From a virus, in the IMG/VR virus record IMGVR_UViG_3300032046_006282, positions 1 through 30,328 of that record: a DNA stretch of 30,328 nucleotides; one strand, written 5' to 3'. The notes beneath the pieces were generated by a model. That model was not told the DNA's origin. It ran no database searches and saw only the letters and a program-made list of their open reading frames with translations. A program made the position numbers and the translations under genes. How positions within the stretch are numbered: position 1 is the stretch's first letter; each line of letters starts with the position of its first letter. Positions 25,651-30,011 of the stretch are shown here, piece by piece.

Positions 25651-27378
25651 TCAACCCTCCTTTGCTTGCTTGGGTTTCTTCGCGCCTTTGGCTTTCAGCG
25701 CTAGTTTCCCCGCCTTCGCTTTGGCGGCAGCCCTCGCCGCGGCGGGGGTCGCCTTCTTTACCGCCTTATCCCGGGCGGACTTGGCTTTCTCCCGCGCCGC
25801 CGCCGCATCAACGCGCGCCTTCTCCTCCGCCGCCACCTGGCGCTCGATGGCGGCGACATCCACGCCCCAGATCAAGCCCTGCGCGCGCAAATGGTCGTGC
25901 TTGCCGTCGCACTGGTGGGCGTTGAGGCTATTCGCCAAGTCCATTTCCAGCGCGAGCTCCACCGCGGCCGTAGCGATCTCCTTGGCGGGCGCCTGGTCGA
26001 ATCGCGCCGCCAGGGCGCCGCGGTAATCTATCCCGCCCCAGTTGTTCTTTCCGGGTTTCAGCCCGAGCTGATCGCACATGCGCTTGGCGATATTGTGATC
26101 CAACCGTTGCGCCTGGCTCCCATAGAGCAACCGCATCGCCGGCGCGGAGAAGGGCTGCGGTCGCGCCTGCTCCATAATCTTTGCCAGCACCAGTTGCCCG
26201 GCGTGCGCGGCGGCGCGGCCCGCCGCCTTGCGCTGCTTCTCCCTGGCGATCTCGGAGGGCGAACGCACCAATGAATATGATCCCCAATGCTGCTTGCACT
26301 TGCTAGACCGCGGGCAGACGGTGAGGGTCTGCCCGGGCTTCTCCGAATCCGCGACCATGATGCCCTTGACCGCGGCCTCGCAGCATTTCTCGTTGCGCCC
26401 GATCTCGCGGTAATCGCAGCCGCAGATCGCGCTTTTATCCCGCCCGCCGCTATAACCAGCATCCAGCCGCAGCAGCGGCTCGCCTTTCGCCTTGGCGCCG
26501 GCGATGGCGCCCTCGATGAAGGCGGTGGTCTTCGCGCGGTAACACGCGCGGTCGGTGCACAGGTCGCGCTTGGCGAGTTCGGGCCACAAGGCCGGGGCGT
26601 AGCCAGTCCGCCTTTTGCAATCTTTGCAAAGCGGGGCGCTGGCCACCAGGTCCGGCGCATCGGCCTCGCGGAATGGCGCCGCGGGCAGGTCGAGTAGGAT
26701 CTCATTGCGAATCCAGCGGTCGAGCTCGGCCGCGCTCACGTAGCGGATTCCCTGCCAATCGGCGCGTAGCGCGTGCTTGAGCGCCTCGGCCTGTTCCTTC
26801 GGCTGCAGGCGCGCGATCAGGATCGCGTGGGCCGCGGTGATCTTCTCCTCCCACAGCGCCTTCTGCGCGGGCCCGATCAGTTCGCCGAGCTTCAGCCGCT
26901 GATAGACGTAGGACTGCGAGCGGCCGACCTTCGCCGCCACCGCCGCGACGTCGTAGCGGCAGGTTTGCATCAGTGCCCCGAAGCCCTGGGCCTCATCGAG
27001 CGGATGGACGTCCTCGCGCTGAAGATTCTCGACGACCTGGATCTCCAGCGCCCGGGCATCGCTGAGGTCGCGCACCACGACCGGGATGTGTTCCTGGCCC
27101 ACCGCGCGCGCCGCCCGTAGGCGCCGGGCGCCGCAGATGACCTCGTACATCGGCCCCAGGCCGCGTTTCCCTTTCCCCCGATCGCGGGCCTCATCGGGGA
27201 TCTGCCGCACCAGCAGCGGGTTGATGATCCCCTGCTCGCGGATACTGGCCGCGAGCTCCTCGAGCCCCTGGTTGTCGAAGTGCCGGCGCGGGTTGGTGGG
27301 CGATTCGTGCAGGCTCCGCGCCTCGACATAGGTGATCGTCGTCTCATCGGTCTTGATCGCAGTCGAAGGATCGCTCAT
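25651..27378 (-). CDS. ParB-like protein with cysteine-rich middle
   Basis: The 575-residue product starts at 27378 with a perfect AGGAGG. Residues about 15-130 are the ParB/Srx domain (SPTNPRRHFD, GARRLRAAR, ENLQREDVHPLDEA). A helix-turn-helix follows (about 141-165, DVAAVAAKVGRSQSYVYQRL). The middle (about 255-385) has many cysteines (CKDCKRR, CTDRACY, CGCDY, CC, CPRSSKCKQHW), suggesting one or two zinc sites. The last 70 residues are Lys/Ala-rich and should bind DNA. No parA is present, so a role in replication, nucleoid attack or gene control is more likely than partition. Confidence 0.85.
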   Translation of the reverse strand: MSDPSTAIKTDETTITYVEARSLHESPTNPRRHFDNQGLEELAASIREQGIINPLLVRQIPDEARDRGKGKRGLGPMYEVICGARRLRAARAVGQEHIPVVVRDLSDARALEIQVVENLQREDVHPLDEAQGFGALMQTCRYDVAAVAAKVGRSQSYVYQRLKLGELIGPAQKALWEEKITAAHAILIARLQPKEQAEALKHALRADWQGIRYVSAAELDRWIRNEILLDLPAAPFREADAPDLVASAPLCKDCKRRTGYAPALWPELAKRDLCTDRACYRAKTTAFIEGAIAGAKAKGEPLLRLDAGYSGGRDKSAICGCDYREIGRNEKCCEAAVKGIMVADSEKPGQTLTVCPRSSKCKQHWGSYSLVRSPSEIAREKQRKAAGRAAAHAGQLVLAKIMEQARPQPFSAPAMRLLYGSQAQRLDHNIAKRMCDQLGLKPGKNNWGGIDYRGALAARFDQAPAKEIATAAVELALEMDLANSLNAHQCDGKHDHLRAQGLIWGVDVAAIERQVAAEEKARVDAAAAREKAKSARDKAVKKATPAAARAAAKAKAGKLALKAKGAKKPKQAKEG

Positions 27379-27411
27379 TCGGTCGCCTCCTGTGGCTCTC
27401 GTTGTTGGCAT

Positions 27412-27933: not shown

Positions 27934-28283
27934 CAGTTCCTCCTCGCTTTCGCTGCCCACGGCCGCCGTTGAACCAACCTGTCGGCCCAACGCGTCGCAT
28001 GTTGCGCCGCGACCTCCAGGCATACGCCCGGGCCGGTGAATAGGCGATAATCCGCCATCGCCAGAACCCATGCCGGCGCCGGATTAGTCGCCGATGTCAC
28101 GATCAGAATCGGGATCTGCATGCCCGCGGCCCACAGGAGATTGCGCAGGCAGTCGCTATCCGGCGCGCCCTCGATCAGTCCCAGGTAGACATCGGCCTGG
28201 TCGAGGTTCTGCTGCAGCGCGAAAGTGCCGGCCGCGGCGATGGGTTGTTCGATTTCCGCCGGCGGCTTGTCGCTCCTCGTCAT
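27933..28283 (-). CDS. Small Rossmann-like protein, possibly deoxyribosyltransferase-like
   Basis: The 116-residue product overlaps the helicase loader stop as ATGA, with GGAGAG 7 bases upstream. The order ALQQNLDQADVYLGLIEGAP, then CLRNLLWAAGMQIPILIVTS, resembles the central part of nucleoside 2-deoxyribosyltransferase-like folds (aDvvva.ldg ... E.GyA.a.gkPvi), but the catalytic glutamate position appears to be lost. It could therefore be a binding rather than an enzyme version. The assignment is weak. Confidence 0.5.
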   Translation of the reverse strand: MTRSDKPPAEIEQPIAAAGTFALQQNLDQADVYLGLIEGAPDSDCLRNLLWAAGMQIPILIVTSATNPAPAWVLAMADYRLFTGPGVCLEVAAQHATRWADRLVQRRPWAAKARRN

Positions 28284-29164
28284 CGCTCTCTCCGCCCGCC
28301 CCACTCCGCGTAATTGCCGGCGGTGATGGGCGCGACCTCCGTCGCCTCCAGCAGTCGCCGCATGATCCGCGCGCCCAGCCGCTGCTCAAGCTGCTGCTCG
28401 CTGCAGTTGCTGGTCGCCAGGATCGGCAGCTTGCGCCGATACCGACGATCAACCAGCGCGTAGAGCCGGTCGCGCGCCCAATCCCCGCGCTCGTCATCCG
28501 GCAATCGCTCGGCGCCCAGGTCGTCGAGCGCCAGCAGACTCACCGATCCCGCCGCCTGCTGAATGTCGCCGACCGCGATCCCGCCCGCCCGCTCGATGCG
28601 GTAGGACTCGCGCAGCGCCTCCAGGTAATCGGGCAGGCTGAGGAACAGGCAGACAACGCCGTCCCGCGTCAATCCCCGTACCGTGGCGGCCGCGAGGTGG
28701 GTTTTCCCGCACCCGTTCTCGCCGACCAACAGCAGCCCCATTCCGTCCGCCAGATGGAGCGACCAATTCATCGCCAGATCCGCGCAGCGCTCTGCGGCGA
28801 ACTGGTTGCCCGGGCAGACCTCGAAGTTTTGGAGGCTCGCGGCGGCGAAGCGCGCATCCACGTGCGCCTGCGCCCACAGGCGATCGAGGCACCGCTGTTT
28901 CTCCGCCGCGGCCTGCGAGCGCGCCCGTTCGGCGCTCTGCTTGCGCTCGCAACCGCAGCCGGCGCACCACACCACCAACGCGAGCGGCGGCTGCATGAAC
29001 TCAGGCCGCGGGATCTGCCGGCGACTCCGGCGCGTCCCGCAGTGGGGGCACGGCGCCGGCTCGGGCCGCTCGTTGAACGCGCCGCCTCTCCCACGATTCC
29101 GCGGCCCGCTGGCCATCTCCGCGGCGGATGAGGTTTGAGCTTGCTCCCTTTCCTCGATCTCCAT
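28280..29164 (-). CDS. DnaC-like helicase loader ATPase
   Basis: The 294-residue product starts at 29164 (MEIEEREQ) with GAGGAG 6 bases upstream; ATG at 29185 has no good site. An N-terminal zinc ribbon (CPHCG ... CAGCGCE, about 39-72) is followed by an AAA+ domain: Walker A GENGCGKTH (148-156), Walker B LLALDDLGAE (about 210-219) and sensor LPILATSN. It should load the replicative helicase at the origin together with the initiator encoded upstream. Its first 164 bases overlap the initiator gene in another frame. Confidence 0.9.
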   Translation of the reverse strand: MEIEEREQAQTSSAAEMASGPRNRGRGGAFNERPEPAPCPHCGTRRSRRQIPRPEFMQPPLALVVWCAGCGCERKQSAERARSQAAAEKQRCLDRLWAQAHVDARFAAASLQNFEVCPGNQFAAERCADLAMNWSLHLADGMGLLLVGENGCGKTHLAAATVRGLTRDGVVCLFLSLPDYLEALRESYRIERAGGIAVGDIQQAAGSVSLLALDDLGAERLPDDERGDWARDRLYALVDRRYRRKLPILATSNCSEQQLEQRLGARIMRRLLEATEVAPITAGNYAEWGGRRER

Positions 29165-30011
29165 CTCGTGCTCCTCGGTCGGCATTGATCTCGTCGGCCT
29201 TGCGCATCCAGTTGCGCACCCGCGAGCGAGGCCCGGTCTGCCCGCGCAAGGGGAGTTTGTTTTTTGAGGCGAGCCATGCTTTCAGCGCCCGGATCTCCCG
29301 CGCCAGGTCGAGCTGCCCATAAAGCTCCGCGAGCGAATCCAGAAGCTCGCGATCCCTGCCCTCATCGAGCGGATAGCCCGGGATCGCCTGCAACGCCGCC
29401 CGTTCCGCTGGCCATGACGCCCGGACAGGCTTGTCGTCGGGGGTGGTGGGCGGCGCGGCGCGCAAAACGCGCGGCGCGACCGCAGCTCCCTCCCTCCCTA
29501 AGTCTGGGTCTGTGCCTGAGCGAGGGCGAGGGAGAGGGAGAGGGACAGAGGGAGGGACTAGTCCCTCGGGGGCATCGATACCCTCTCGATAGCCTACCGA
29601 TAGGGTATCGGTAGGGTATGCCGACAGGCCCCCAAGCAAGTCCCGATTGTGCTCGAGGAAGTCGCGCAAAAACCGCTGCGGCCCGCGCAGGGCATGGTTG
29701 AGCGCCGAGATCAGGAACTTCGATCCAGCCTTGACTTCGCCCGCCTGCACGCGCAAGAAGTTCTTGACCCAGACCACCCCGTCGTCGGCATCGTAGAGAC
29801 ATCGCTCCCGGATGGCATCGAGCGCGCGATCCAGGCGCACCCCGCGCAGGCCGATGTGCGCGGCGATGAGTCCCGGCAATATGCTGTAGATTCCCGAAGG
29901 GTTCGCCAGGGGAGAGGTCACGAAATAGAGGAACAGCAACTTACCATCGGGGCCGAATGCGTGAAACCACGGCTCGTCCCAGATGCTGCTGTAGATAGTG
30001 CGACCGGGCAT
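29001..30011 (-). CDS. Replication initiator with N-terminal winged-helix domain
   Basis: The 336-residue product starts at 30011 (MPGRTIYSSIWDEPWF) with GGAGGG 4 bases upstream; the frame reaches 30221 but that part is shadow sequence. Residues 1-125 match phage replication proteins (DGKLLFLYFVTSPLANPSGIYSI, ALDAIRERCLYDADDGVVWVKNFL). A Pro/Arg/Ser linker (about 130-175) is encoded by repeat DNA (iterons at 29576-29619). The second domain (about 190-275) ends in RVRNWMRKADE. The last 50 residues are Arg-rich and overlap the helicase loader gene. Confidence 0.82.
   Translation of the reverse strand: MPGRTIYSSIWDEPWFHAFGPDGKLLFLYFVTSPLANPSGIYSILPGLIAAHIGLRGVRLDRALDAIRERCLYDADDGVVWVKNFLRVQAGEVKAGSKFLISALNHALRGPQRFLRDFLEHNRDLLGGLSAYPTDTLSVGYREGIDAPEGLVPPSVPLPLPRPRSGTDPDLGREGAAVAPRVLRAAPPTTPDDKPVRASWPAERAALQAIPGYPLDEGRDRELLDSLAELYGQLDLAREIRALKAWLASKNKLPLRGQTGPRSRVRNWMRKADEINADRGARDGDRGKGASSNLIRRGDGQRAAESWERRRVQRAARAGAVPPLRDAPESPADPAA
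29518..29557. repeat. Purine tract in the replication gene
   Basis: The plus strand is almost pure purine here, with AGGGAG repeats, and a pyrimidine run CTCCCTCCCTCCCT lies at 29486-29499. Together they form an imperfect inverted repeat that could open or form unusual DNA structure beside the iterons. Confidence 0.7.
29553..29566. repeat. 14-bp perfect palindrome
   Basis: AGGGACTAGTCCCT is a perfect palindrome 9 bases from the first iteron. It could be a binding site for a dimeric protein. Confidence 0.8.
29576..29619. repeat. Four 11-bp iterons, candidate replication origin
   Basis: Four head-to-tail 11-base units: CGATACCCTCT, CGATAGCCTAC, CGATAGGGTAT and CGGTAGGGTAT. The last two differ at one base, and CGATACCCT in unit 1 is the exact inverse of 29602-29610. 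TACCGATA-GGG-TATCGGTA forms an inverted repeat across units. The 11-base period is one DNA turn and not a multiple of three, so protein repetition does not explain it. Known parallel: in phage lambda the origin iterons lie inside the O initiator gene. Confidence 0.7.

Follow-up and report, generated by a model that had tools for sequence, protein, structure and literature searches.

A probable replication origin within the gene of a DnaD-like initiator in an uncultured tailed phage

Does a repeat-bearing segment inside a phage replication gene serve as the origin from which that phage is replicated? The window examined here, 30,328 bases with a GC content of 65%, is the whole of IMG/VR record IMGVR_UViG_3300032046_006282. 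PHROG and Pfam profile matches to tape-measure, portal, terminase and ParB-like genes identify it as a fragment of a tailed phage, whose end lies about 700 bp past the repeats. An initial annotation had proposed a candidate origin at 29486-29619. We conclude, with a probability of about 0.82, that this segment is the replication origin of the phage and lies inside the gene that encodes its DnaD-like initiator; there the initiator would bind, the duplex melt and replication start.

The initiator (replisome organizer) gene is an open reading frame on the minus strand (29001-30011, ATG at 30011) encoding 336 amino acids. Residues 4-92 matched PHROG 1701, 'DnaD-like helicase loader', in a profile search (E 3.3e-9), and residues 1-135, when modelled with AlphaFold2, form a winged helix (mean pLDDT 80.6, pTM 0.75). 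The N-terminal winged-helix domain, the predicted iteron binder, comprises residues 1-95 (29727-30011, minus strand). The best Foldseek matches of the N-terminal model were weak (probability 0.82-0.95, E 0.14-0.3) and were the plasmid initiator/Rep-DNA structures 4pt7, 5kbj and 4pql, which we take to be RepA_N proteins. The Pfam search found no domain in the window protein, hence neither a C-terminal DnaB_2/DnaD-like helicase-loading domain nor the RepA_N domain (pfam06970), and the protein is therefore classed by its N-terminal domain only. Proteins of its relatives match both PHROG 1701 and PHROG 6251, and only some members of these families carry the C-terminal domain; DnaB_2 was found by Pfam in Geobacillus virus E2, L093 and L107, and the initiator of a close relative, L002, likewise had no Pfam domain. 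No lambda O profile was among the Pfam or PHROG matches of the window. The next gene after the initiator encodes a DnaC-like helicase loader (28280-29185, minus strand; PHROG 50, E 5.3e-48), and at the 3' end of the initiator gene (29001-29185) the two genes share up to 184 bases, read in different frames.

Four elements were found in the segment, all of them in the linker-coding part of this gene, where the initial annotation had put its units, palindrome and tract. Four 11-bp units, CGATACCCTCT (29576-29586), CGATAGCCTAC (29587-29597), CGATAGGGTAT (29598-29608) and CGGTAGGGTAT (29609-29619), given in plus-strand letters, follow one another in the exact phase that had been described. The lag-11 self-match at this array, 26/33, is the maximum over the entire record, and first-order Markov simulations never reached it, either in 200 runs over the full record or in 5000 over the local 200 bp; the array is therefore not a product of chance. 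Since 11 is no multiple of the codon, successive units are read in different frames. The 11-mer GATACCCTATC, which recurs as a repeat in the initiator genes of many other phages, occurs perfectly on the minus strand at 29599-29609, overlapping unit CGATAGGGTAT. Dyad symmetry of the units is mildly greater than in shuffled sequences (0.71 versus 0.57; singly mostly not significant), and the array itself folds well as a single strand (z -4.0) because the units face each other.

Between the array and the tract described below lies GAGGGACTAGTCCCTC (29552-29567), a perfect palindrome longer than any other in the record; the initial annotation had recognized it but gave its length as 14 bp rather than 16. 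What had been described as a purine/pyrimidine mirror tract proves to be a pyrimidine tract of the coding, minus strand with a 6-bp period (29510-29551; repeated CTCCCT/CTCGCC), and the mirror symmetry is a by-product of that repeat. Its lag-6 (27/33) and lag-12 (25/33) self-matches are both record maxima, and we propose it as the strand-opening or helicase-entry element. Its GC content is 71%, that of the iterons 52%. Just past the tract is a plus-strand pyrimidine block, CTCCCTCCCTCCCT (29486-29499), which is complementary to purines at 29541-29557 and has a similar counterpart in L002. On the coding strand this block reads GGGAGGGAGGGAG and, together with the tract, could form unusual purine-rich structures. 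Predicted single-strand folding of the palindrome and tract region was unremarkable in the window (z -1.2; z -2.3 in L002).

The initiator of L002 is 92% identical to that of the window over the first 134 residues, the C-terminal parts of the two proteins show no significant similarity, and the loaders share 31% identity. The arrays differ at 3 of 54 bases, the 16-bp palindrome is identical within differing surroundings, and the L002 tract has a 6-bp period with another sequence (CTCAGG). A comparison of synonymous sites between the window and L002, a single pair only, gave 2/16 versus 31/119 codons. Searches for further relatives with the window's own array returned only the contig of L002 and one distant homologue, L138, and GTDB genomes held no close relatives. 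A query with the peptide encoded by the iterons found no match, for which low-complexity filtering may account.

Homologues were gathered by the N-terminal domain alone, giving 93 loci, of which 56 non-redundant ones were analysed. Self-matches in their linker-coding segments were elevated at lags 10, 11 and 22 (t=8.7 for lag 11) and at lags 6, 12, 18 and 24 (t up to 12); the upstream and downstream controls of these 56 loci gave neither the lag-11 nor the lag-6-series signal. In the N-terminal coding region the lag-11 self-match was slightly elevated, and extra unit copies in some phages may account for part of this. Since the seeds for the homologue set stemmed from a motif search, the lag-11 test was repeated on subsets, and the signal persisted both in the 34 loci that lack the GATACCC-type motif (p=6e-7) and in the 15 whose identity to the motif-derived seeds is below 45% (p=2e-4). 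Locus by locus, arrays were present in 33/56, tracts in 33/56 and both in 18/56, compared with 6 arrays and no tracts in the N-terminal control, and 8/56 had neither element at the threshold used. Wherever both were detected the array lay 5' of the tract (18/18, median gap 13); inspection showed an apparent reverse order in L101 and in the cultured phages Krappator27, Javan271 and BUCT702. Many relatives thus keep the 11-base phase, the loss of which would have told against the annotation, despite large protein divergence and different unit sequences.

The sequence of the unit varies between lineages. GATAC-type units recur at a spacing of 11 bp, or close to it, in Geobacillus virus E2, PVJ1 and vB_EalM-137. 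In D6E, PK3.6, CD1801 and 268TH008 the unit is CGATACG, spaced by 11-12 bp, and in Krappator27 it is CGAATCG, spaced by 11 bp. A consensus-like query was used solely for the listing of named phages. Klebsiella ST846-OXA48phi9.2, Acinetobacter A785.1 and the E. coli phages CharmingMan and Fraca contain AAGGGGCTT or AGCCCCTT units and a CAGGAA tract; the phages of these three hosts were retrieved with the window protein only. Spacing of these units follows the helical turn and not the codon. Other spacings also occur (12-bp units in Listeria A118, 15-bp units in TP901-1). In the Klebsiella, Acinetobacter and E. coli loci (L140-L143) an 11-bp-period stretch was also seen in the winged-helix-coding part, at about nucleotides 172-200 of the initiator gene (from position 1432 of each locus). 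It encodes EGASKGL (EGAKKGL in the E. coli phages), a peptide similar to the EGASKGL that the linker units specify in the Klebsiella and E. coli phages, which suggests a second cluster of the linker unit there.

The short-period tract was compared across 43 genes that possess one. Thirty of these tracts were nearly without C or G on one strand, as against 3 equally long N-terminal stretches. Self-structure was predicted to be absent in 36 of the 43, although shuffled tracts differed little. Most tracts are AT-richer than their own genomes, whereas those of the window and L002 are 68-71% GC. The window tract is thus repetitive, strand-asymmetric and adjacent to the array but GC-rich, and the opening elements of SPP1 and lambda are AT-rich. 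If the duplex opens at the tract, strand asymmetry would be a more general property of it than AT-richness. DnaD of B. subtilis recognizes 5'-TnnT-3' elements (PMC10201434). An interpretation of the tracts as arrays of such elements was rejected, as A or T pairs at spacing 3 were 1.03- and 1.24-fold the expected number, much less than at spacing 6, and none is present in the tract of the window.

Repeats in a disordered linker might reflect selection on the protein, or slippage tolerated there, rather than any function of the DNA; linkers do tolerate repeats, and the 6-bp tracts encode dipeptide repeats that could expand by slippage. The 11-bp units, read in three frames, give unrelated peptides. 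Six close relatives with four units (L107-L112) bear directly on this point. In these, ATA-NNN-TAT-N-G was invariant in 28/28 half-site columns versus 4/16 of the others (p=9e-8, Fisher's test; columns were classed according to the motif, but after inspection), and a class-free scan of periods 2-15 found only period 11 significant (p=0.001). All 10 third codon positions within half-sites were invariant, as against 17 of the 60 examined in the N-terminal domain (p=2e-5). Invariance therefore tracks the 11-bp phase, third codon positions included, which contradicts a protein-level origin of the array. The annotation had named conservation at synonymous positions in relatives as a check on its suggestion of DNA-level selection, and this comparison bears it out.

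Arrays and tracts are also found outside genes. In L003 (5409-5957) the initiator gene ends after the winged-helix domain and a tract and array follow downstream in the intergenic gap, a natural case of an origin parted from its gene. In L005 (8480-8580) an array and a 6-bp tract are intergenic, 3.3 kb upstream of the initiator gene, whose own linker has neither. These non-coding examples and the invariance in L107-L112 are strong reasons to reject the protein-level explanation of the array, to which we assign almost no weight. When DNA alone was searched, with a pattern of two GATA..CTATC units spaced by 11 bp, 18 viral loci matched. Twelve of them have the initiator domain, and in 10 of these 12 the array is in the gene; five of the 12 contigs supplied seeds for the profile by which the domain was recognized, and the remaining seven did not. 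The same pattern was found at 7 loci in GTDB genomes, 2 of them with the initiator domain. It stands beside the initiator domain in a Pararhizobium MAG (L119) and a Mollicutes MAG contig (L124), which are probably prophages or phage contigs.

Selection on the DNA leaves the question of what the units do. They could be sites through which the initiator controls its own expression or copy number, with replication starting elsewhere. The apparent second cluster in the winged-helix-coding part of the Klebsiella, Acinetobacter and E. coli relatives, the 3.3 kb that separate the L005 array from its gene and the two initiator-bound regions of SPP1 (PMC6316719) would all suit such a role. We nevertheless consider it unlikely, as the array often adjoins a short-period tract, as an origin would, and the in-gene repeats of Tuc2009 and TP901-1 have been reported as the origin (PMC8965321). 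It is more doubtful still that the array belongs to another DNA-binding protein, such as a repressor or the phage's ParB-like protein, despite the dyad-like form of the units and the presence of a ParB-like gene in the record (25651-27411): the array accompanies the initiator gene across very different phages, and no ParB was annotated in the inspected neighbourhoods of cultured relatives. The reading as an origin has points against it as well: the tract of the window is GC-rich (71%), richer than the iterons, and in this departs from the classical opening element and from the tracts of most relatives; 8 of the 56 homologues have neither element; and the structural likeness to RepA_N initiators is weak. 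The retained phase and the synonymous invariance in relatives, both read from sequence, support the candidate origin of the initial annotation.

Iteron origins within initiator genes are already known from lambda O, SPP1 gp38, Tuc2009 and RepA_N plasmids, and the window adds a new member; since many phages that are only distantly related share the layout, we regard the locus as a new example of this known kind. The analogy to lambda O that had been drawn holds for the layout, with iterons and then a proposed opening tract in mid-gene, but SPP1 gp38, Tuc2009 Rep and the RepA_N initiators are nearer precedents. The flank in lambda is AT-rich and its initiator is of another family. Lambda iterons are also longer than the 11-bp units of the window. 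Four iterons flanked by an opening tract make up ori-lambda in the middle of the O gene (PMC7466680). The lactococcal P335 phages Tuc2009 (ORF16, Rep2009) and TP901-1 (ORF13) have, like the window, a DnaD-like organizer gene with in-gene direct repeats (PMC8965321), and the database record of Tuc2009 carries the remark 'contains origin of replication'. Tuc2009 Rep shares four units at an 11-bp pitch with the window, and its short-period tract is poor in C, but its N-terminal family is PHROG 5708, its C-terminal domain is Rep_Org_C (Pfam) and its unit is CAACCAAATGT. SPP1 gp38 binds direct repeats inside its own gene (oriL) beside an AT-rich unwinding element, and the helicase is loaded via a loader (PMC6316719); the window, by this published description, shares the organizer gene with internal repeats but has a GC-rich tract next to them and a DnaC-like loader in place of gp39. 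The RepA_N initiators of pSK41 and pSK1 bind four Rep boxes central in rep through an N-terminal winged helix, and the linker that the origin encodes is dispensable in the protein (PMC5703833). They are the best, though weak, structural match to the N-terminal domain of the window, from which they differ in having no sequence-level match, other box sequences and a plasmid system that uses primase contact.

By analogy with SPP1 (PMC6316719), Tuc2009/TP901-1 (PMC8965321), pSK41 (PMC5703833) and lambda (PMC7466680), the origin most likely works as follows. The N-terminal winged helix would bind the array of four dyad-like 11-bp units (GATA-NNN-TATC type), and with one unit to each helical turn the initiator subunits would be aligned on one face of the DNA; the modelled likeness to plasmid initiators, weak as it is, fits this proposal. 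The nucleoprotein complex would then open or expose the adjoining strand-asymmetric 6-bp-repeat tract. Gene order and the SPP1 and RepA_N systems suggest that the C-terminal region of the initiator and the neighbouring DnaC-like loader would place the replicative helicase at this tract. Within the protein, the origin DNA would pass merely as an unstructured linker.

Taken jointly, the observations allow a broader reading, which we put forward tentatively and rate at somewhat less than an even chance: a portable two-part origin code may be common to winged-helix DnaD-like phage initiators and largely independent of host and GC content. It would consist of lineage-specific one-turn iterons and a short-period tract, in which strand asymmetry and not AT-richness is essential; the pair would lie inside the linker or outside the gene and would stay with the binding domain through swaps of the C-terminal domains. 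A regularity of this kind across the family was not found in the literature searched, which took in few subscription papers, and we do not claim that it is new.

If the reading as an origin is correct, the origin of an uncultured phage would have been located from sequence alone. It would also provide a rule, namely to search the linker of a DnaD-like initiator gene for a strand-asymmetric tract and, next to it, units spaced by one helical turn; this rule could be tested on phages already in culture, among them E. coli phage Fraca, Acinetobacter A785.1 and Geobacillus virus E2. Because unit sequences differ by lineage, each initiator would have its own target, and the recognition code of the domain would thereby become readable. 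The exchange of origins and loader domains between phages would become traceable as well.
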